Source: an uncultured Gammaproteobacteria bacterium (lineage in GTDB: Bacteria > Pseudomonadota > Gammaproteobacteria > UBA4575). From it: a DNA stretch of 64,000 bases. The DNA lies in contig OX638335.1 in the NCBI GenBank assembly GCA_951812785.1, forward strand, positions 1,975,712-2,039,711, read 5' to 3'. The notes under the pieces were generated by a model. It saw only the letters and a program-made list of their open reading frames with translations, was not told the DNA's origin and ran no database searches. A program made the translations under genes and the position numbers. Below, piece by piece: positions 49,103 through 60,137 of this stretch. Positions within the stretch are counted from its first letter, which is position 1; every line of letters begins with the position of its first letter.

Positions 49103-49915
49103 ATGCCAGAGCTTCCTGAAGTAGAAACCACGCGGCGCGGCATTGAACCCCATGTAAATGGGCAAAAAGTGTTATCGGTGGTGACACGCACTAAAAAATT
49201 ACGCTGGCCCATTCCCAGCCAACTCAACAAAAAACTCAGCCAGCAGGTGATTACCTCAGTTAACCGGCGTGGAAAATATTTATTACTCAACACGGACTCT
49301 GGCACACTCATTATTCATTTAGGCATGTCAGGCAGCTTGCGCATCACTGATGCTAGTGCGGCTGCGCAAAAACATGACCACGTGGATGTGGTTTTCAAAA
49401 AAAATATATTGCGCCTACGTGACCCACGCCGATTTAGTTGTGTACTGTGGACGAGCAAAGACCCACTCTCGCACAAACTATTAGCCTCATTAGGGCCAGA
49501 ACCGTTAGAAGAAGAATTTACTGCACAACATTTATATCACGCGTCGCGTAACAGACGCATTTCAGTCAAAGACTTTATTATGAATTCTCACATGGTTGTT
49601 GGTGTAGGGAACATCTACGCTACCGAAGCGTTGTTCACCAGCAAAATTCACCCACTACGCGCCGCAGGAAAGATCTCTTTACCTCAATACGAATTATTAG
49701 TCAGCGCGATTAAAGAAATATTAGTGGATGCCATCCAGCGCGGTGGCACAACCTTAAGAGACTTCACACGAGAAGATGGAAAACCGGGGTATTTTCAGCA
49801 AGAGTTACAAGTGTATGGAAGAACTAAACAGCCTTGTGTGGTGTGTGCACATCCATTACGTTCAACTAAACAAGGACAGCGGACGACGACTTATTGCACG
49901 AAGTGTCAGCGTTAG
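49103..49915 (+). CDS. mutM: Formamidopyrimidine-DNA glycosylase
   Basis: 270 residues. The N-terminus MPELPEVETTRRG supplies the catalytic Pro2 and Glu3. LGMSGSLRI and the helix-two-turn-helix region GVGNIYATEALF follow. The C-terminal zinc finger has Cys pairs CVVC and CTKC, 16 residues apart. It removes 8-oxoguanine and Fapy lesions. An intact mutM does not exclude a higher GC-to-AT rate from other causes. It lies at the edge of the cassette block. Confidence 0.96.
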   Translation: MPELPEVETTRRGIEPHVNGQKVLSVVTRTKKLRWPIPSQLNKKLSQQVITSVNRRGKYLLLNTDSGTLIIHLGMSGSLRITDASAAAQKHDHVDVVFKKNILRLRDPRRFSCVLWTSKDPLSHKLLASLGPEPLEEEFTAQHLYHASRNRRISVKDFIMNSHMVVGVGNIYATEALFTSKIHPLRAAGKISLPQYELLVSAIKEILVDAIQRGGTTLRDFTREDGKPGYFQQELQVYGRTKQPCVVCAHPLRSTKQGQRTTTYCTKCQR

Positions 49916-49941
49916 AGTCAGAATAAAAGATAAAAACAAAT

Positions 49942-49971
49942 AGAAGGTGTACTGACCTCTTTTATTTATTG
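49942..49971 (+). terminator. Probable terminator after mutM
   Basis: AGAAGGT, GTACTG loop and ACCTCT form a bulged stem followed by TTTTATTTATT, about 27 bases after the mutM stop. The same core (GTACTGA between GG-rich and CC-rich arms) recurs at 55832-55851, so it could instead be a small repeat. Confidence 0.4.
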
Positions 49972-49986
49972 TTAACTGTAAACATT

Positions 49987-50328
49987 TCACTGGTTCTCCA
50001 GGCTTTTAAAACACTCAAGATTTAATGCCTTGAGAAAAGCGCAACCCATTATGGTGATAGTTCCATTTTTATCATCTTTTATTGATATGGCATAAGAATT
50101 ATCATTGCCACAATCTACATTCCAGTATGCAATACCTCTTTTCGTGTCCACGCCTTGGAAATATACCCTATTAACATTTGCGCATTTTTCACCGTTTTGA
50201 ATTAAATACTCATTAAAAAATTCTGCTCTCTCTTTTTCTGATTTTCTTTTAACTTGATCATGGAAGCTATTAGCCAGCACTGAGGTTGGAATTAAAATTA
50301 CTATGAGTATTGTATTTATTAATTTCAT
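49987..50328 (-). CDS. Secreted hypothetical protein (cassette gene)
   Basis: 113 residues. It begins with a clear signal peptide (MKLINTILIVILIPTSVLAN). The mature part is polar, with three cysteines and GKxN-like text (NGEKCANVNRVYF, YWNVDCGNDNSYAISIKDD). I do not recognise the family. Its ATG lies about 20 bases after the R'-like end of an attC-like site, which is typical of an integron cassette gene. It has no promoter that I can see. Confidence 0.6.
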   Translation of the reverse strand: MKLINTILIVILIPTSVLANSFHDQVKRKSEKERAEFFNEYLIQNGEKCANVNRVYFQGVDTKRGIAYWNVDCGNDNSYAISIKDDKNGTITIMGCAFLKALNLECFKSLENQ

Positions 50329-50348
50329 TAATTTTATCTCTTGTTTAC

Positions 50349-50460
50349 TGACAACGCCTCAATTTGCAACGAGCATTAGCGAGTCCGACAACATTGGCTT
50401 ATTAGCCGTAACCAGCTCAATATCTGGCAAATTATTGGCAACATCTTGAACGGTTTTATA
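50349..50460 (-). other. attC-like recombination site, long type
   Basis: Read on the minus strand, TATAAAAC overlaps the stop codon of the transglutaminase gene, followed by CGTTCAAG (L''-like). After a partly self-complementary middle it ends TTGAGGCGTTGTCA, where GTTGTCA is R'-like. Length is about 112 bases, similar to the long Vibrio-type sites. Folding was not computed, so this is a moderate call. Confidence 0.45.
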
Positions 50461-50980
50461 CTCTATTAAGCACCCGAATTACTACAGGTAGTGGTTCCGC
50501 CCATATTTCAGGTAAATCAGCTTCTCCTTGCATAGTTACAGGAAATGCCAACTTCTCAACTGGAGGACAGAACTCTGCGGACACTCCTTGTTTGTTACCC
50601 CTTGCATCAATGCGATACCAACCAAAAGCCTCAAGGTAAACAGCATTTAGACCATGCAGACAAAATGGGGGAGTGTCAGTAATGGTTAAGCGTTGGTAAC
50701 ACAAACCCGCTGGAATATTATTTGCTCGAAGAAGTGCTGTTAGCAGATGGCTTTTTGCATAGCAATAATCTGTTCCATGATTGAGCACGTCTGACGTTTT
50801 GTACGTTACAGGGCTTAGTTTGTAATCCCAGCTATGCTTAATTTCATCTCGGACAAATTCAAAGCACTTCCGAGCAATTTCTTCGGGTGCAGATGAGCCT
50901 TCAGCTAGTATTTTTGCTTGAGTTAATACAGCTGGTTTTTTCCAATCTATATATTCAGTAGCTTCTAGATATTTATTCAT
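50456..50980 (-). CDS. Transglutaminase-like cysteine protein (cassette gene)
   Basis: 174 residues. The catalytic triad of the transglutaminase/arylamine-like fold is visible: Cys in DYCYAKSHLLTALLRA (about residue 72), His in LHGLNAVYLEA (about 109) and Asp in WYRIDARGNK (about 124). Members act as proteases or peptide-modifying enzymes; the substrate is unknown. The start lies 20-25 bases after an attC-like R' site and the stop overlaps the next one, so this is a complete cassette. Confidence 0.75.
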   Translation of the reverse strand: MNKYLEATEYIDWKKPAVLTQAKILAEGSSAPEEIARKCFEFVRDEIKHSWDYKLSPVTYKTSDVLNHGTDYCYAKSHLLTALLRANNIPAGLCYQRLTITDTPPFCLHGLNAVYLEAFGWYRIDARGNKQGVSAEFCPPVEKLAFPVTMQGEADLPEIWAEPLPVVIRVLNRV

Positions 50981-50999
50981 ATGTATAAATATTTAAGAC

Positions 51000-51054
51000 G
51001 GCTAACGCCGAAAGAAACCGCGCTTACAGCATCGGCTTGCTTGATTTGTTATGT
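51000..51054 (-). other. attC-like recombination site, short type
   Basis: On the minus strand ACATAAC (51048-51054) is followed by AAATCAAG, then arms GCCGA and TCGGC, and ends in GTTAGCC (51000-51006). These correspond to R'', L'', the inner stem and R' of an attC site. The TAA stop of the preceding cassette gene lies inside ACATAAC, as is common in cassettes. Confidence 0.65.
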
Positions 51055-51314
51055 GCTGAATACCCTAATTATAGAGTAAATAATAGAACCAAAAAAACCA
51101 TGTGGAGCCCTATAAAACCAGTTAACTTTGTTTCCTGAACGGTCGTTATCAGATGAAACCAACAGCCATCTCCCTTTTTCTGTAACTCGCCCCTTTGCTA
51201 TATCAAGATGCCCCCATATCCCCGTAAGATTATTTTCTTTATTGATGACTAAAGACCCTTCTCCAAATTCTGCTTGGTCATTTTCATCGAAATCAATGAA
51301 TTCGACATAAATAA
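51049..51314 (-). pseudogene. Cassette gene, 3' part only (5' cut by IS copy A)
   Basis: The minus strand reads about 86 codons from the IS edge to TAA 51049-51051. It begins YVEFIDFDENDQAEFGEG, then LTGIWGHLDIAKGRVTEKGR, WLLVSSDNDRSG and NWFYRAPHGFFGSII. There is no start codon in this frame because the IS at 51315 replaces it. The family is not recognised. The stop inside the attC-like site shows it was a cassette gene. Confidence 0.65.
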
Positions 51315-52473
51315 AAAGGGTATTGACCCACTGCTGTCCCAGTAACGCGGCGCCAAAGATAAACTAAGTTGAGGTGAACCATGTTTATCTGGTTTTACTT
51401 TATTAAATAAACTGAACAAATCGCGCCTAATAAATAAATTGGTATGTAGCAGACGAATGATCTGTTGCATGCTTTGCGTTATTTTTGATTGACACTTCAT
51501 AAATGCAATGAGCAAATAAACACACAATGCTGCTAGCACTTGAGTCAAGACCGCATTTTTACTGATCCCTAGAAAATTCTTAATCTTTAAGTTTTGTTTA
51601 ATCCACTTAAAGCATAATTCCACCTGCCAACGTTGTTTATAGATGTCGGTAATGGTTTGAGCAGACCAATCAAAATGATTGGTGATGAATGCATAATGTT
51701 TACCTGTCTGTGGGGCTTGATATCCAACACAACGAATGGGGTACAACTGATTGCCGGCACGTTGTTTTGAGGTGTATTCAATGATTTGATCGCGTGTAAT
51801 GTTGCTGTTTTCAGCGATGGGTTTGCGCTCCACCACACGATATAGCGCATTACCTCGAATACGTGTCACCCAATAAATTCCCTTATCTGTTAAGGCTTTA
51901 TGCCATCGGTAGTGATTGTAGCCCTTGTCAAAGACCACTACGGAACCACCAGGAAGGTTTACCACTTCATTTTCAGAAATACGGCTTTCCGTGACCCGCG
52001 CGAAGCTTGGAATCAACCCATCGTGATCTAAGCCCAGATGCAGTTTGAAGGCGGCTTTCTTGCGATTGTAATCTGCCCAGGGAAACAGTTTCATCGAAGC
52101 ATCTAGCAAACTACCATCTCACGAAAACAACTTCCCTTTGCATCGAAACCCATGTCGGGGTGAGTGATGTAAACAACGTTGATAGAGTTGTTCGAACAAA
52201 GAAGCATAAAATTGATAATCGCGTTGTTCATTGGCGCGTGCCAGGGCTGATTTACTGACCGACTGACAACCTAAATGGTAGTGTGTATATTGTTGGTTGA
52301 TCAGACAACTTTCAATATCACGTAAACTTTGGCGGCCATTGAGTTGCCCCACGGCTAATGCCACGAATTGGCTCCAACGCGATAGTGCTATCGACCTGAT
52401 TCGCGAGGCGTTCAAATTCATGTCTCGGGACCATTTTAAGCATCTGAGATAGGACAGTGTTACAATGCGGCAT
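51249..52473 (-). pseudogene. IS4-family transposase (copy A), frameshift plus TGA
   Basis: The start MPHCNTVLSQMLKMVPRHEF at 52473 has a strong AAGGAG site. About 30 codons on, the frame shifts to LSRWSQFVALAVGQLNG. That frame ends at a TGA (52119) in KGKLFS-stop-DGSLLDAS, where Leu is expected. The DDE core then continues: PFxAD-like FPWADYNRKKAAFKLH, VVFDKGYNHYRW and the IS4 signature YKQRWQVELCFKWIK (Y-2-R-3-E-6-K). The last frame has no stop inside the IS and runs through the terminal repeat. Copy B has the same two lesions. Confidence 0.85.
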
Positions 52474-52589
52474 GGCTTAAATCTCCTTATGTATACAGTG
52501 TTTTCTAGACAACTACATTGTATCAATTAGTTGAGATTTAAGTCTGTTTATCTTCTCCTTACTGGGACAGCAGTGGGTCAACGCCCTTT
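51315..52589 (-). mobile_element. IS4-family insertion sequence, copy A
   Basis: 1275 bases with terminal repeats of about 31 bases that begin AAAGGG and share TTGACCCACTGCTGTCCCAG. The two ends differ at two positions (CG versus TA after AAAGGG). It carries one transposase frame set on the minus strand. It appears identical to copy B at 55897-57171, which lies in the opposite orientation. No target-site duplication is evident. Its left end truncates one cassette gene and its right end lies inside an attC-like site. Confidence 0.9.
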
Positions 52590-52638
52590 ATTGTGCCGGC
52601 GCAGCACTGCTGCATCCGTGTGCTTTGACTTGTTATGT
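52590..52638 (-). other. attC-like site interrupted by IS copy A
   Basis: The minus strand after the restriction gene stop reads GCACATAAC (R'' ACATAAC at 52632-52638), AAGTCAAAGCAC and a GC-rich segment with GCAGCAGTGCTGC self-complementarity. It then meets the IS at 52589 before any R' element. It is the left part of an attC-like site whose end has been displaced. Confidence 0.5.
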
Positions 52639-52646
52639 GCTTTTTA

Positions 52647-55600
52647 TTAGAACTCAAGCGCATCAATCTCTTTCATCAATCTGTCAGTTTCTGAAAGCGC
52701 TACAGTGATTTTTTGATAGTGCAAAATATCATCAAACTCCAATACCCTATCTTTTCTGTCTTTGAGCCATTTTTGGGCAGGTTGATAACCGCCAATGTAA
52801 AACTCCCAAGCGACTTGTGGCACGTTGTCAAAATACTGCGTGCCGTTGATGAAAACCTTACCATCTTTGTATTTTGGTTTCCCCACTACATTATCGCCAT
52901 CCATTGGATATTGAGTAATGTATTGCTCAACGATAGGGCTTTCTAGCAAATGAACTTGGCGTATTTCCCCGCCTAGCTTTACCAACTGCCAAAAGGTTTC
53001 TTTGTTTTTTGGATAAGGTACTCTCGGGAAATCTATTTTTAAAAACTCTTTGAATTTACTGCGATAGTTCGGCGAATGCAAAATGGCATAAATGTAATCT
53101 AAAATATCAATTGGGGAAAAAGTATTTTCTGTAGTTTCTTTTTCATTGGTAAAAGCCAAGCCTAATTTATCTGCTAGTTTTTTTACTATTTCAGTTTTTA
53201 GATTTGGCTTTCTTTCTTCTGTTTTCTCAATTGTTTGTTGACCGTTTTTTTCTGGGTAGATATAGAGAGGAAAGGCGTATCCTGTTTCTTTTGTCTGTAA
53301 ACTAACAGTACATACTTCGCTCAGATATTTTGATATGAGTATATGCTGAAAATCAAATGTACTCTGTTGTCTACAACTAACCAAAGCCAAACTACCCTTC
53401 AAGATATGATGAGTAACTTTCTCAGCTGGTCGACTTACAATTTTAGGATCGTAATAAATGCTTCTAACGTCAAAGGGGCGGTATAAAATTGGTTTAATGT
53501 TAGTCTCATTGTATTCCACTCCTGTGATTTTGTGAGTTATCTTATAGCTTCCAGAATCTACAACTCGATAGTCTTTTATAAAATCTGGCGGTATGTCATT
53601 ACCCAATAAAGTTTTAAACTTGTCTTTGGTTTCATTTTTAGAAATGCCAATAAAGAGTTTATCTCGGTCTGTTTTTATACCGCTATTTACTTGTGTAAAT
53701 AATTCGTTGATAGATAAAAAACTGTTATATTCTTCTTCTAATTCAAAGTCTTTAGGTACGAAAAAGTGGTAAGGTTGATTTTTCTGAATTGAATTCCAAT
53801 TAAGACTTGAAATACTGTGTTCATTAAGAAATTCATATTTCGCGTTTCTTTTACCAAAAAGGTCATAATGAAACACTTTACCGGCTTTGCTTTTATCCCC
53901 ATTTTTTATAAAAATGTTAATTGAAACACCTTGCTGTATATCAAAAACATTTTCATCTTTCCCACCATCAGGGGCAGTTTCATTCTTCTTGGCACTTCCA
54001 TGTAAATCGATAATATAAATCTTATCAAAATTCTCTAGCAAATGTTTTCGCATTTGGCGGTGTGTAATTCCGTCAATAAAGCTATTGTTTGATATGTAAG
54101 CCAAAACACCACTTCCATTTTTGTCGATATAATGTTGTCCGTAGCGAATGAATTTGATGTAATCATCATCTAAATTTGTCTTTCTTTCATTAAGATCTTT
54201 TTTATAATCATTCAAAAGTCGTTGTATCCATACCCCTTTATTTGTACTACTCACAGCATAAGGCGGATTACCGATTACACACATTACTGGTGTGTCTCTT
54301 TTGATATGATTGGCTTCATTAGCTTCGGTGCTTAACCAATTGGCAAATAATGTTCCTGTGTCTTGGTGATGTTCTTCTAGGCTATTAGTCAAATACACTT
54401 TAAAGCGCTGGTTAGATGTAGGTTTAAACCCTGTCTCGGATAAGAGCAAATCCAATTTCAAGTGTGCCATTGCATAGCTTGCCATGAGCAATTCAAAACC
54501 ATTCAAGCGCGGCAATAAGTGGCTTTCTATATAGTTACTCCAAATGCCTTGCTGCCCTTGAAACTTTTGGTGAATGTGCTTTACCACCTCTGCCAAAAAA
54601 GTACCTGTTCCTGTTGCTGGGTCAAGAATTTGTACTTTGTGTACTTCTTGCTCCATTTGTTTGTAGCCTGTTGAAGAACGCTTGTCAGGTGTTTGGCTAT
54701 TAACTTTTATAGTTGTTTTACTGGTGTCGGCTAGACCTTGCGGCAAGTCAAATTCTGTTTTTAGGATATCGTCAACTGCTCGAACAATAAAGTTGACTAC
54801 AGGTTTCGGCGTGTACCAAACCCCGCGCGCCTTTCTTAATTTCGGGTCATATTCACTTAGAAAGGTTTCGTAAAAATGGATTATAGGGTCTTCCATTTTT
54901 GTGGATTTCCCGTAGTTCTTTAAAATTTCTTCTACGTTGCATGCCAAAAATATTTCTGAAAGATTTTCAACAACCCATTTTATTCTGTCGTCAATATCTG
55001 GCCCAGCAATGTAGCCAAACAGTTTTCGTAGAAATGGATTCGATTTTGGAATAAGTTCAGCTGCTTCCTGCCGACTAAAAGTATCTAAGGTTGGATCATG
55101 TAAGCGCGCTGCAAACATTCCGTAGGCAATTGTTTGAGCATAAACATCTGCAAACCCTTGCGGCGTGATGTCATGTATTAAAACCTCCTTGAAAGCCAAC
55201 ATTTGATCTTTCAGCGTACTGTCTTCTTGGTTAGCTTCATCGCTAGATAAAGCTTTTCCGATGATGTCAGAAAGCAAGCGGGCCTTGCCCGCCATCATTT
55301 CTGCTAATTTTTTGGGGCTTTTTATTGTTTGCCCAACTTGAGTGCAAAAATCTTTGATTAGATTTTCAAAGTCACCAAAATTTTCTGGCAAAGGTTTTAT
55401 GTCTTTGTCTGTTATTTCTGCAATGGCAATCTTGGTAACGAGTTCGCCTTCTAGGTAAAGGTGAAAGTTGATGTAGTCTGTAAAAATCAGGTTGTTTAGA
55501 GAGGCTTTGTAACGGTCAAATTGTTCTTTGTTTCCAGTCTTCTTGCTACCTTCAAGGTCTTTATCGCCAATGTCTTTCGCCTCAATAAAACCAACAGGAA

Positions 55601-55784
55601 TATCCTTCTTCGTTAAAATGTAGTCCGGCGCGCCACAACTCTGTCTTTTTGGCTCGTTAGTAACAAGAACATCTGAAACAATAGCCTTGATTAGTTCTGC
55701 TAAATCACCTCGATAGGTATGCTCAGTTGCATGACCTGATTTGTAGTGTTGATTAACCTTGTTTAGATAATTAGTAATACTCAT
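52647..55784 (-). CDS. Single-chain type IIG/ISP-like restriction-modification enzyme
   Basis: 1045 residues. Near the N-terminus APDYILTKKDIPVGFIEAKD is a PD-ExK nuclease motif (about residues 52-72). The central N6-adenine methyltransferase has motif I DPATGTGTFLAEV (about 395) and motif IV NPPYAVSS (about 510). Motif VIII-like and target-recognition regions follow, along with RPFDVRSIYYD, common in the Eco57I-type C-terminal part. One protein would therefore modify and cut DNA, recognition unknown, and protect against phage. No helicase is present. Its codons look more AT-rich than the neighbours. It is a cassette-like gene: an R'-like site lies 33-39 bases upstream of the start and an attC-like site follows the stop. 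Confidence 0.85.
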   Translation of the reverse strand: MSITNYLNKVNQHYKSGHATEHTYRGDLAELIKAIVSDVLVTNEPKRQSCGAPDYILTKKDIPVGFIEAKDIGDKDLEGSKKTGNKEQFDRYKASLNNLIFTDYINFHLYLEGELVTKIAIAEITDKDIKPLPENFGDFENLIKDFCTQVGQTIKSPKKLAEMMAGKARLLSDIIGKALSSDEANQEDSTLKDQMLAFKEVLIHDITPQGFADVYAQTIAYGMFAARLHDPTLDTFSRQEAAELIPKSNPFLRKLFGYIAGPDIDDRIKWVVENLSEIFLACNVEEILKNYGKSTKMEDPIIHFYETFLSEYDPKLRKARGVWYTPKPVVNFIVRAVDDILKTEFDLPQGLADTSKTTIKVNSQTPDKRSSTGYKQMEQEVHKVQILDPATGTGTFLAEVVKHIHQKFQGQQGIWSNYIESHLLPRLNGFELLMASYAMAHLKLDLLLSETGFKPTSNQRFKVYLTNSLEEHHQDTGTLFANWLSTEANEANHIKRDTPVMCVIGNPPYAVSSTNKGVWIQRLLNDYKKDLNERKTNLDDDYIKFIRYGQHYIDKNGSGVLAYISNNSFIDGITHRQMRKHLLENFDKIYIIDLHGSAKKNETAPDGGKDENVFDIQQGVSINIFIKNGDKSKAGKVFHYDLFGKRNAKYEFLNEHSISSLNWNSIQKNQPYHFFVPKDFELEEEYNSFLSINELFTQVNSGIKTDRDKLFIGISKNETKDKFKTLLGNDIPPDFIKDYRVVDSGSYKITHKITGVEYNETNIKPILYRPFDVRSIYYDPKIVSRPAEKVTHHILKGSLALVSCRQQSTFDFQHILISKYLSEVCTVSLQTKETGYAFPLYIYPEKNGQQTIEKTEERKPNLKTEIVKKLADKLGLAFTNEKETTENTFSPIDILDYIYAILHSPNYRSKFKEFLKIDFPRVPYPKNKETFWQLVKLGGEIRQVHLLESPIVEQYITQYPMDGDNVVGKPKYKDGKVFINGTQYFDNVPQVAWEFYIGGYQPAQKWLKDRKDRVLEFDDILHYQKITVALSETDRLMKEIDALEF

Positions 55785-55816
55785 CGGTTTCCTTACTTAG
55801 GCTCGTCAGGAGAGGC

Positions 55817-55823
55817 ACATAAC
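55817..55823 (-). other. attC R'-like element upstream of the restriction gene
   Basis: GTTATGT on the minus strand within CAACCGTTATGTGCC marks the probable left boundary of the restriction-modification cassette. It matches the R'' type ACATAAC used at 51048 and 52632 (reverse complement). The rest of the attC beyond it is unclear because IS copy B begins about 75 bases further on. Confidence 0.45.
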
Positions 55824-55831
55824 GGTTGTGT

Positions 55832-55851
55832 AAAGGGTACTGATCCCTTTT
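55832..55851. repeat. Short palindrome resembling the IS4 end
   Basis: AAAGGGTACTGATCCCTTTT is self-complementary (AAAGGG/CCCTTT). Its first 15 bases match the IS terminal repeat, AAAGGGTATTGACCC, at all but two positions. It may be an excision scar, a solo end or coincidence. Confidence 0.35.
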
Positions 55852-55896
55852 ATAACTAAGGTAGGCTACGTTCAACATGGAAGTCCAAAGAAGATA

Positions 55897-57171
55897 AAAG
55901 GGCGTTGACCCACTGCTGTCCCAGTAAGGAGAAGATAAACAGACTTAAATCTCAACTAATTGATACAATGTAGTTGTCTAGAAAACACTGTATACATAAG
56001 GAGATTTAAGCCATGCCGCATTGTAACACTGTCCTATCTCAGATGCTTAAAATGGTCCCGAGACATGAATTTGAACGCCTCGCGAATCAGGTCGATAGCA
56101 CTATCGCGTTGGAGCCAATTCGTGGCATTAGCCGTGGGGCAACTCAATGGCCGCCAAAGTTTACGTGATATTGAAAGTTGTCTGATCAACCAACAATATA
56201 CACACTACCATTTAGGTTGTCAGTCGGTCAGTAAATCAGCCCTGGCACGCGCCAATGAACAACGCGATTATCAATTTTATGCTTCTTTGTTCGAACAACT
56301 CTATCAACGTTGTTTACATCACTCACCCCGACATGGGTTTCGATGCAAAGGGAAGTTGTTTTCGTGAGATGGTAGTTTGCTAGATGCTTCGATGAAACTG
56401 TTTCCCTGGGCAGATTACAATCGCAAGAAAGCCGCCTTCAAACTGCATCTGGGCTTAGATCACGATGGGTTGATTCCAAGCTTCGCGCGGGTCACGGAAA
56501 GCCGTATTTCTGAAAATGAAGTGGTAAACCTTCCTGGTGGTTCCGTAGTGGTCTTTGACAAGGGCTACAATCACTACCGATGGCATAAAGCCTTAACAGA
56601 TAAGGGAATTTATTGGGTGACACGTATTCGAGGTAATGCGCTATATCGTGTGGTGGAGCGCAAACCCATCGCTGAAAACAGCAACATTACACGCGATCAA
56701 ATCATTGAATACACCTCAAAACAACGTGCCGGCAATCAGTTGTACCCCATTCGTTGTGTTGGATATCAAGCCCCACAGACAGGTAAACATTATGCATTCA
56801 TCACCAATCATTTTGATTGGTCTGCTCAAACCATTACCGACATCTATAAACAACGTTGGCAGGTGGAATTATGCTTTAAGTGGATTAAACAAAACTTAAA
56901 GATTAAGAATTTTCTAGGGATCAGTAAAAATGCGGTCTTGACTCAAGTGCTAGCAGCATTGTGTGTTTATTTGCTCATTGCATTTATGAAGTGTCAATCA
57001 AAAATAACGCAAAGCATGCAACAGATCATTCGTCTGCTACATACCAATTTATTTATTAGGCGCGATTTGTTCAGTTTATTTAATAAAGTAAAACCAGATA
57101 AACATGGTTCACCTCAACTTAGTTTATCTTTGGCGCCGCGTTACTGGGACAGCAGTGGGTCAATACCCTTT
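55897..57171 (+). mobile_element. IS4-family insertion sequence, copy B (inverted relative to copy A)
   Basis: 1275 bases, the same length and ends as copy A, with the transposase on the plus strand. The two copies bracket the 3.3-kb restriction-modification segment as inverted repeats. Flanks are AGATA on the left and ATTGTACAG on the right, with no obvious duplication. The right end lies next to an attC-like site of the cassette at 57193. Confidence 0.9.
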
Positions 57172-57219
57172 ATTGTACAGTTATGTGATTTGTTAGAAGC
57201 CAATTCTAGTTGGCTTTGA
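56013..57219 (+). pseudogene. IS4-family transposase (copy B), same lesions as copy A
   Basis: ATG 56013 has the AAGGAG site. The frame shift after about 30 codons (about 56100) and the TGA at 56365-56367 are the same as in copy A, and the translated pieces are residue-for-residue identical within the IS. The last frame runs out of the element to a stop at 57217-57219. Either the copies were made after inactivation, with transposase supplied elsewhere, or they are kept identical by gene conversion. Confidence 0.85.
57172..57198 (-). other. attC-like site start, interrupted by IS copy B
   Basis: The minus strand reads TTCTAAC (57192-57198), AAATC, ACATAAC (57180-57186), then the IS. The TAA of the extended cassette gene lies in TTCTAAC. 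This repeats the TAACAAATCA text of the site at 51000-51054, but the remainder is missing. Confidence 0.45.
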
Positions 57220-58071
57220 CGGCTTAATGATTTCGTCAATTCTTTCAACTTCATAATGACGATGAACTATTTCAGCTTCGTAACCATAGGATATTTTTTC
57301 ATACAGCAATACCTGCAATGAATCTCCGGGCTTAACATTCTTGTTTCGACTTTGAAACTAGGTGAGCCATTCAACATCTGTGATTTTGGCTTCTATACCT
57401 CTTCCGTCATAGTAAAAGGCCCACATTGACTGACCCAAATAATCAGGCTTCTTAACTTTTATAATGCACTTTCTTGAAGATTCTATAACTTCTTTTGTTA
57501 AAACCTCGCGAACAACCTCATTAGAGATGCTTAGCTCATTATTAAATATAACTTCATTATCTTTATAACGATAAATAGCTTCGTCTTCATCAGACAGGTT
57601 TTCAAGACTTTCTTGAACGGAACGTATATCAGAAAGCAAAGTTTCAGCTTTCGGGGAAGAGTAAGCTGGTAATTGTTTAAGGTCTGTTTCTTCAGCAAGG
57701 CCTAATAACTTACCTTCCAATAATTTTACCCCATTTATATCTACTATTTCATCTTTGTCTTTAAGCCAATCTAACACAAGGTATTTTCCTCTAACTAAGA
57801 AATAACCTAAAATTCTATTCCATTCAACATCTTTAAGAGCCTCATCCGGCAAACCTTCTATGAGATCTCTAAATCTTGCCTTAATTGAGCCTGACTCTAT
57901 TTCGTCAAGAACTAATGTGCATCTTAATGAAACATCAAAAGAGGCTTCCAACAAATGCGAATCCATAGCTTGGAGTGAATCAATTAACCCAGACATTGCC
58001 TTAAATACACGAGCAGGATCTCCTTCACCAGGCTTGAAATCTATCGTTATTTCAAATTCGTTATCTTCCAT
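57193..58071 (-). pseudogene. Cassette gene of unknown function with an in-frame amber codon
   Basis: 237 codons from ATG 58071 to TAG 57358-57360. The same frame then continues 54 more sense codons (FQSRNKNVKPGDSLQVLLYE through EVERIDEIIKPSKP) to a TAA inside the attC-like site. The downstream part looks like the natural C-terminal domain, so the full protein was probably about 291 residues and TAG is a point mutation. The N-terminus EFEITIDFKPGEGDPARVFK and LKDVEWNRILGYFLVRGK are not a family I recognise. Whether the 237-residue form works is unknown. Confidence 0.6.
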
Positions 58072-58095
58072 TTAATTATTGTCTTATAACGGTTT

Positions 58096-58147
58096 AGCTA
58101 ACAGGTACACAAATAGCATGCATCCTAGTTGGATGACCTGTTTTAGC
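58096..58147 (-). other. attC-like site with clear nested hairpin
   Basis: Arms AGCTAACAGGT (58096-58106) and ACCTGTTTTAGC (58136-58147) pair with one bulged position. Inside lies a second hairpin, CATCC (58121-58125) and GGATG (58131-58135). On the minus strand this gives R'' GCTAAAAC overlapping the stop codon of the upstream gene and R' GTTAGCT. It is the best structured recombination site of the block. Confidence 0.65.
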
Positions 58148-58415
58148 GATTCCACGGAAATAATGGCCTCAATATTCGCTCATAGTCTCTAGCTAAAGCA
58201 GTAATTAAACAAAATAAAGAAATTTGTATTAGATATTGCTCAATAACGCTTTCAGGAACTAAAAAGATTACAAATAAATAAGCTAGTAAGCTTAATACTG
58301 AGCACCAACCAAAGATAGCCGTAACATATTCCCAACGAAGCGAAGAATGCTTCCCACTAAGCAAATTAGCAACGAGTATTATTACTGCGGGAACTAATTG
58401 TGAAGATAATTCCAT
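58143..58415 (-). CDS. Small membrane protein (cassette gene)
   Basis: 90 residues with three hydrophobic stretches (LVPAVIILVANLLSG, YVTAIFGWCSVLSLLAYLFV, YLIQISLFCLITALA) and a basic C-terminus (RILRPLFPWNR). Small integral membrane proteins of unknown function are common cassette products. The stop lies in the attC-like R''. It is the first gene of the block after ggt, in the same direction. Confidence 0.55.
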   Translation of the reverse strand: MELSSQLVPAVIILVANLLSGKHSSLRWEYVTAIFGWCSVLSLLAYLFVIFLVPESVIEQYLIQISLFCLITALARDYERILRPLFPWNR

Positions 58416-58475
58416 GAATTACTATAAAATCAATTAATAACAGTTGCAATTAATTGGATGAGATAAAGGGTGATC

Positions 58476-60137
58476 TTATTGAATGACAGCCAACCCTTCA
58501 CCACGCAAATCAGAGGCCGCTTCAACTTTATTATTTTTTGGATGCCAGATAATGGCGTGCATGTTGCCATAGGTGCGTGACATTTCTTTTAGCGGGTGAC
58601 CTTTGTTGGCAAGCGTTGTTTTTTCTTTTTCTGTTAACGCGTTTATTTCGAATTGAATTTCATCAGGGAGGTATTGGTGATGAAATCTTCGTTGGCTGAC
58701 GATTTCATTTACGTTGGCGCCTTGTTGATAATTGATTAATGCTAGTGCCAGCATACTGATTATTCTGCTCCCTCCGGGCGTGCCCACAATTAGCGTGCGC
58801 TGTTCATCTCGTGCAAACAGTGGCGTCATACTAGATAGCATGCGTTTACCAGGTTCAATGGCATTGGCGTCTGACCCCACTAAGCCCCAAATGTTGGCCA
58901 CACCGCCCGACATGGAGAAATCATCCATTTCATCATTGAGTAATATGCCGGTGCCGGGGGCAACAAAGCCACTGCCGAAAGGGTAGTTGATTGATAATGT
59001 AGCGGCGACATAATTGCCTTCACTATCTAAGACTGAAAAATGTGTGGTGTCTTCTCCTTTGGATGTTAGTGACTTTGCGAGTGATTCACTTGTGCTGGCT
59101 TTTGCTTGGTTGAAGCTAGCAAATTTATCTTGTGCATATTGCTTATTCAGCAATTTGCTTAATGGCATGTCAGTGTAAGCCGGGTCACCTAAATATATTG
59201 CACGGTCTTGGTAAGCACGGCGCATGGCTTCAACGACCTTGTGTATTGATTCGGCATCATTAAGGTCTAATACTGGGCTTTGTTCTAGCATGGCCAGAAT
59301 TTGTGAGATCACCACGCCGCCCGAGGTGGGCGGTGGCGGCATGATTATTTCTATGCCGTGGTAGTCGGTTTTAATCGGTGTTCTTTTCTCAATACTATAG
59401 CTTGCCAAATCTTCTAGGCGCCAAATGCCTCCTGCGGCTTGTACGCCTTGCACCATTTTTTCTGCCACGTCACCATAGTAAAAACCCTTGGCACCTTGTT
59501 GTGCAATTTTTTCTAGTGTGTTGGCTAAATCAGTTTGTCGAACAACAAACTCATGTGGGGGGACTTCGCCCTTATCTAAGAAAATATCGCTCGCTGCGGG
59601 TGACGCTAATAACGCTTGTTGGCGCAAGCTGGCAAGTTTTATGTAATGGTCGCCTGGGGTGAAGCCCTCTTTGGCATATTTGATGGCAGGTTGCAGGTTG
59701 TCTGCTAAGGTCAAACGCCCATAGTGTTTAGTTATATGTTCCAACGCAGCAACTACGCCAGGAATGCCGGCGGCTAATGGACCATTGATTGATTGACCGG
59801 TTAACCTGCCTTCTTCATCTAGATACATATCATGCGTTGCATCCAATGGGGCAACTTCTCTGCCGTCGATGACTACATCGGCATTAGTGGATGAGTCATG
59901 TAACAACCAAAACCCGCCGCCGCCTAAGCCGCTACCATAAGGCTCAACCACCGCTAAAGCAGCACTCATGGCGACAGCTGCATCAAATGCATTGCCGCCT
60001 GTTTGTAATATTTGTTCGCCGGCTTGTGTGGCTAGCTTATGCGCGCTGGCGATGGCGTATGGGTTTTTATTGTCGTCCGCATACGCTAAGCAGGTGAATG
60101 ACACAATTAATATTAAAAGAATTCTGCAAATAATCAT
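58476..60137 (-). CDS. ggt: Gamma-glutamyltransferase
   Basis: 553 residues with a signal peptide (about 1-20). The Thr nucleophile created by self-cleavage is in GEDTTHFSVLD (about residue 365). The substrate and oxyanion regions appear in GGNAFDAAVAMSAALAVVEP, SGLGGGGFW, PPPTSGGVVISQILAM and GTPGGSRIISM. It is a periplasmic heterodimer that cleaves glutathione and gamma-glutamyl peptides. It is followed by the cassette block; the ferredoxin gene lies directly upstream with no gap. Confidence 0.94.
   Translation of the reverse strand: MIICRILLILIVSFTCLAYADDNKNPYAIASAHKLATQAGEQILQTGGNAFDAAVAMSAALAVVEPYGSGLGGGGFWLLHDSSTNADVVIDGREVAPLDATHDMYLDEEGRLTGQSINGPLAAGIPGVVAALEHITKHYGRLTLADNLQPAIKYAKEGFTPGDHYIKLASLRQQALLASPAASDIFLDKGEVPPHEFVVRQTDLANTLEKIAQQGAKGFYYGDVAEKMVQGVQAAGGIWRLEDLASYSIEKRTPIKTDYHGIEIIMPPPPTSGGVVISQILAMLEQSPVLDLNDAESIHKVVEAMRRAYQDRAIYLGDPAYTDMPLSKLLNKQYAQDKFASFNQAKASTSESLAKSLTSKGEDTTHFSVLDSEGNYVAATLSINYPFGSGFVAPGTGILLNDEMDDFSMSGGVANIWGLVGSDANAIEPGKRMLSSMTPLFARDEQRTLIVGTPGGSRIISMLALALINYQQGANVNEIVSQRRFHHQYLPDEIQFEINALTEKEKTTLANKGHPLKEMSRTYGNMHAIIWHPKNNKVEAASDLRGEGLAVIQ

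Follow-up and report, generated by a model that had tools for sequence, protein, structure and literature searches.

The interval between mutM and ggt in the closed genome G000 of a gammaproteobacterium (2.158 Mb) probably holds relict cassettes of a decayed chromosomal integron, which resemble clusters of attC sites lacking integron-integrases (CALIN) and have been broken further by insertion sequences (IS). The interval is located in the window, the 64-kb stretch of DNA that was analysed (bases 1975712–2039711 of the genome), and is filled with accessory genes, mostly on the minus strand. Read on this strand from ggt, the block comprises a 90-aa gene, a 237-aa open reading frame (ORF), an IS on the plus strand, a 1045-aa type ISP restriction-modification (RM) gene, a second IS on the minus strand, a gene remnant, a transglutaminase-like gene and a 113-aa gene, which is followed by mutM (Table 1). 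No integron integrase is encoded within the window. The assignment is based on an attC site that passes a covariance model, a second attC cut by an IS, a remnant of intI at 560 kb of the same genome and the absence of the block from relatives.

Two covariance models were used for the detection of attC sites. Model R1 was built by us from 36 attC sites, taken from arrays that stand next to the intI genes of other gammaproteobacteria. They were collected with a pairing-based finder and aligned, with the attC structure imposed on the alignment. In this alignment 89.5% of the cells pair, and the covariation is far above that of shuffled and slid controls; the E-values of this self-built model are rough. 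The window was scanned with the filters off. The negative control, 80 mutM regions of other genomes (1.59 Mb), gave no R1 matches at E ≤ 1 under default filters. Model R2 is a same-genus covariance model made from 18 matches, with the window site left out. The sites were further assessed with single-arm weight matrices, with the fold of the bottom strand against shuffles (z) and with local similarity against background stretches. Rfam yielded no attC-type match, either at the gathering threshold over the window or at E ≤ 1 over 49.9–58.5 kb, and a simple pattern finder requiring strict R pairing did not detect the window sites.

The site at 51000–51054 is the sole clear attC of the window. In the R1 ranking the four matches behind it score 13.2 bits at most, and with R2 it obtains 29.1 bits (E 3.2e-5). 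The same site ranks first in the window for both the left-arm and the right-arm matrix scores. Its similarity to other attC sites of G000 reaches a score of 18, which is attained by none of 5670 background stretches. The TAA stop codon of the same-strand gene remnant at 51053–51313 is covered by this attC and lies in its R'' box. The second site is the 5' part of an attC, which begins at 52638, 9 nt behind the stop codon of the ISP gene; from there, ACATAACAAGTCAAAGCACACGGATGCAGCAGTGCTGCGCCGGCACAAT leads into the IS. On its left side this sequence matches the attC at 85844–85902 of G000 (TAACAAGTCAAAGCACTCGGA) with a local score of 21, whereas the best of 5671 background stretches scores 16. 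The cut site was missed as a truncated match by R2, which was applied to stretches that stop at the edge of the IS.

A degenerate candidate is located behind the 90-aa gene and overlaps its stop codon. R2 places 58091–58151 second in the window (16.8 bits, window-wide E 0.081), followed by a match of 11.4 bits; the alignment takes in the L arms and the spacer, and both R boxes lie outside it. The hairpin at 58096–58147 folds better than shuffled sequences (z −2.9), and with R1 it does not reach E 5. Two further stretches are possible attC sites on speculative grounds. The one at 57172–57198 sits at the true end of the 57.2–58.1 kb gene, and its matrix score is reached by 24 of 127952 positions; its similarity to other attC sites of G000 is not above background. 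The stretch at 55816–55866 has a right-arm matrix score of 4.2 and a fold z of −0.9, and it shows neither a covariance match nor excess similarity to other attC sites of the genome.

Table 1. Features of the mutM–ggt interval (window positions) and, in the last three rows, the repeats of a second system (positions within the named loci).
Feature	Position	Strand	Basis or remark
mutM	49103..49915	+	left border of block
113-aa gene, signal-peptide-like start, last before mutM	49987..50328	-	ORF
Transglutaminase-like gene	50360..50980	-	Transglut_core 49 bits
attC, R'' ACATAAC ... R' GTTAGCC	51000..51054	-	R1 32.4 bits, E 3.1e-5
Cassette gene 3' remnant, cut by IS copy 1	51053..51313	-	open frame ...YSIIRVFST*, ends at TAACAA
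IS copy 1 (DDE_Tnp_1 + DUF4372), 1275 bp, ends AAAGGG/CCCTTT	51315..52589	-	Pfam
attC 5' part (R'' ACATAAC, L'', loop)	52590..52638	-	severed by IS at 52589
Type ISP / IIG single-chain RM enzyme, 1045 aa	52647..55784	-	Pfam, PADLOC
Possible degenerate attC before ISP gene (GCCTACC ... GTTATGT)	55816..55866	-	manual reading
IS copy 2, inverted vs copy 1, transposase on +	55897..57171	+	Pfam
Possible attC start (TTCTAACAAATCA), cut by IS copy 2	57172..57198	-	left-arm matrix 2.7
Cassette-like gene, pseudogene	57193..58071	-	in-frame TAG at 57358
Degenerate attC candidate behind 90-aa gene, R' GTTATAA, R'' box lost	58084..58151	-	R2
90-aa gene, first after ggt	58143..58415	-	ORF
ggt	58476..60137	-	right border of block
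Second-system arrays (G002)	L291 4328-14009, L292 3802-10790, L293 3311-8526		repeat copies
Second-system repeats (G003, ggt-mutM gap)	L080 11479-12097		three small genes
Second-system repeats (G000)	L295 4322, 5828, 6082; L297 3504		repeat copies

A complete integron consists of a functional intI gene and an adjacent attI site; no intact intI is present in the closed genome G000, and no IntI match exceeds the curated cut-off. The best matches of the intI model are XerC/XerD-like genes and the last 25 codons of an intI gene (IYVKTTMIYTHVMKKGANAVRSPID) at 560304–560378, which is 1.47 Mb from the window sites in coordinates. The remnant stands beside the largest attC array of the genome, at 556–560 kb, and is divergent from it, as in a canonical integron. 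R1 finds five attC matches there, with scores from 17 to 50 bits: those at 559.7 and 556.8 kb and three weaker ones at 556.0–558.0 kb. Further R1 matches are located at 434.0, 1240.6 and 1489.9 kb, with a weak one at 579.7 kb and three of 19 to 30 bits at 85–86 kb. Of the 11 attC sites outside the window, 10 have the end of an ORF of 45 aa or more, on the same strand, no farther than 60 nt from R''.

The array at the intI remnant (L021 5305-5379 and 1034-4744, G000 555–560 kb) carries toxin-antitoxin, GrpB-like and DNA-repair genes. An attC-like, near-perfect palindrome of 67 nt (L021 2976-3042) lacks the extra-helical bases that give an attC site its strand polarity. The 434-kb locus (L145 5950-7699) is a single cassette with a predicted defence gene of the GmrSD type (HEC-05-like), followed by an attC of 47.3 bits. 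At 1240.6 kb (L146 5533-8844), an attC of 40.7 bits shortly precedes an apparent array of clustered regularly interspaced short palindromic repeats (CRISPR) with cas2- and cas1-like genes, the repeats being seen there as repeated peptides in ORFs. The cargo, with RM, GmrSD-type, HigB and ParE genes, is of the sort typical of cassettes.

Decay of the integrase is also seen in a sister species. In G004, which belongs to the same genus, an intI gene with three stop codons adjoins an aminotransferase gene, and the intI remnant of G000 adjoins the orthologous gene. The genus therefore had an integron at this place, which was broken in at least two species. At the same place G002 has a weak attC of 20.1 bits. 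The ggt–mutM gap itself differs among the relatives. In G001, G005, G008 and G010 the two genes are about 15–35 bp apart. The gap of G002 contains ArsC-like and Acr3-like genes, and that of G003 three small genes and a repeat of another kind; none of these genes is shared with the window, and neither gap contains an attC. The block has therefore been acquired: four relatives have next to nothing in the gap, and in two others it is occupied by unrelated DNA.

The two IS copies of the block are 100% identical and inverted, and six copies are present in the genome. Each of the two truncates one candidate attC, and at least one gene has lost its 5' part to them. Target duplications are not readable at either copy. 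In all six copies an in-frame TGA separates the DUF4372 part of the transposase from the DDE part (52110–52121 in the window); this could reflect either an old master copy that was already broken or a signal for recoding. A nonsense mutation and a frameshift have disrupted two genes of the block, the 237-aa ORF and the transglutaminase gene, respectively. A 301-aa homologue (63% identity) reads through the TAG of the 57193–58071 gene, which properly ends with the TAA at 57193. Plasmids gave no match to the 237-aa protein. The transglutaminase gene is frameshifted near 50470, and its homologues continue for about 25–30 residues in the other frame. Mutation thus accounts for both the stop at 50456 and that at 57358. 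Among 273 sampled genomes, 16 others have homologues of the transglutaminase; these are about 200 aa long, with 42–68% identity, and none is found in G002. The product of the ISP gene is recognised by Type_ISP_C (276.6 bits) and Eco57I in Pfam and by REase_MTase_IIG (1162 bits) in PADLOC; judged by its full-length open frame, the enzyme could still restrict and modify DNA. The 90-aa and 113-aa genes have no family match in Pfam or PADLOC.

A first-pass annotation of the window had described the interval as a cassette array without an integrase. Cassettes without an integrase are what we find too, with none encoded in the window, but the array is worn and broken. Among the R'/R'' pairs that it had named, 51000–51054 is clear and lies far above the threshold of our own covariance model, whereas 58096–58147, taken there as the best, is marginal and degenerate. 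A TAAC element was claimed at four stop codons. It is present at 51049 and 57193, but 50456 and 58143 read TAAAAC. The stop at 50456 was created by the frameshift and is therefore not a cassette boundary. The statement that all genes point in one direction has to be corrected for the transposase of IS copy 2, and the gene list had overlooked both the identical inverted IS copies and the two pseudogenes. The proposed search of the rest of the genome returned attC sites at other loci but intI only as the 25-codon remnant. Vertical inheritance in relatives was named as a counter-indication; the block genes are not vertically inherited at the ggt–mutM locus.

Several observations weigh against a cassette origin of the block. 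Just one full-length attC of the window passes the model, and its bottom strand folds weakly, not surpassing the majority of shuffles (z −0.6), without an R''/R' stem. For comparison, three attC sites have z values of −4.6 to −6.3; the values at 559.7 and 556.8 kb of G000 are −5.9 and −4.6. The weak fold suggests that the site is degraded or inactive and would recombine poorly. The lost half of the attC at 52590–52638 was not recovered beyond either IS. No attC is found behind the transglutaminase or the 113-aa gene. Homologues of the transglutaminase, 237-aa and ISP genes in other genomes have no attC within about 1.5 kb, and the relatives therefore do not demonstrate a cassette origin for these three genes. 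Not every gene of the block need be a cassette.

These observations leave room for the view that the convergent pair ggt–mutM acts as a general hot spot, into which accessory genes are brought by illegitimate recombination, by transposons or by recombination of other kinds, and that a lone cassette with its attC has strayed among these unrelated arrivals. The ArsC/Acr3-like pair in the gap of G002 and the three small genes with another repeat in that of G003, both without attC, agree with it, as do the two mutM-side genes without attC and the tested homologues that are not attC-linked elsewhere. Against it, attC-type ends recur within the block, cut by the IS behind the ISP gene and degenerate behind the 90-aa gene, and we regard this explanation as unlikely. 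Alternatively, the ISP gene might have arrived independently of any cassettes, as a composite transposon between the inverted IS copies. The two identical copies do bracket the gene, and six copies exist in the genome. The half attC lies inside the IS pair, however, and its left arm is nearly identical to another attC of G000; the IS therefore cut pre-existing cassette DNA. The flanks also lack the target duplication of a composite insertion, and we regard such an arrival as very improbable. An active array, the cassettes of which are still exchanged by an integrase acting from elsewhere, would explain why the block differs from those of the sister genomes. With XerC/XerD-like recombinases and a 25-codon scrap in place of an intact IntI, and with signs of decay in the pseudogenes, in the cuts by IS and in the weak fold of the attC, present activity is hardly conceivable. 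The first-pass annotation had attributed the non-uniform text of the sites to exchange with other arrays, but decay explains it at least as well.

We propose that relict cassettes reached the ggt–mutM locus in the following way. An ancestral chromosomal integron, with intI beside the aminotransferase gene, would have captured cassettes. As long as the integrase was made, the folded attC ends would have allowed the cassettes to move, and some may have landed at secondary sites, including ggt–mutM. The scatter of the loci suggests that the insertion was integrase-mediated and took place at non-classical sites. The decay of intI to its last 25 codons would then have left the cassettes immobile, with the genes themselves as their only remaining function. 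Two IS copies, with the loss of flanking DNA (the 3' half of an attC and the 5' part of a gene), a nonsense mutation and a frameshift probably broke the block further. The death of an integron is thus documented in a single small, closed genome together with its sister species: the integrase is worn away, and the cassettes outlast it both at its original locus and elsewhere.

A second kind of array was observed in the sister genomes. In these arrays most of the small genes are directly followed by an imperfect inverted repeat of 29–31 bp, AATGACCGCTwTTGCGCCGAAAGCnGACAT, which is absent from the 64-kb window but occupies the gap between ggt and mutM in G003. The end of a same-strand ORF precedes 30 of the 39 repeat copies, compared with 13% of random positions and with 7 of 39 on the opposite strand; in 11 copies the repeat itself supplies the stop codon with its TGA. 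Two of the G002 arrays end at a tyrosine recombinase of 208 aa (L291 13383-14009, L292 10164-10790), and in both the repeat nearest to it carries an extra inverted half-site. At L291 4328-4414 and L293 3875-3962, attC sites lie right against the repeat or overlap with it, as if attC cassettes had been taken into arrays of the other kind. Relatives of the 208-aa recombinase are common on proteobacterial plasmids. On a plasmid of Paraburkholderia megapolitana (L301 5888-11524), six copies of a 47-nt repeat surround such a relative; three other plasmid regions that were inspected showed no clear array. The system may be widespread with diverged repeats. No description of it was found in the open-access literature searched. 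It is possible, and suggested here tentatively, that two unrelated gene-capture systems share the ggt–mutM gap of the genus as a landing place: IntI/attC in G000 and, in G003, three single-gene cassettes with the repeat at their ends. If so, the second of these would constitute an integron-like platform that does not depend on IntI, and its repeat and recombinase could matter more than the relict cassettes.

The block belongs to an already described kind of remnant. Cassette insertion at non-classical attG sites has reportedly been observed by Loot et al. (2024) and would explain the scatter of cassettes over several loci; no attG junction was identified at the block, whose boundaries are not definable. 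As in a CALIN, attC sites stand behind same-strand genes with no integrase nearby. By default IntegronFinder 2 requires at least two attC sites for a CALIN, and single-attC cases can be real (PMC9024848). With one full-length site that passes, one IS-cut half of strong similarity and one degenerate site at E 0.08, the block lies below this usual two-site rule (PMC9024848). Groups of cassettes without an integrase can thus escape detection when decayed R boxes or IS cuts bring their sites below standard thresholds. The decayed integrons of Xanthomonas likewise derive from an ancestral integron at a conserved locus, with intI inactivated in lineages and CALINs at several further loci of the chromosome (PMC12444791). 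In contrast to Xanthomonas, where ilvD is the neighbour, the platform of G000 is located beside an aminotransferase gene; G000 is also a small genome (2.16 Mb), in which only 25 codons of intI are left.

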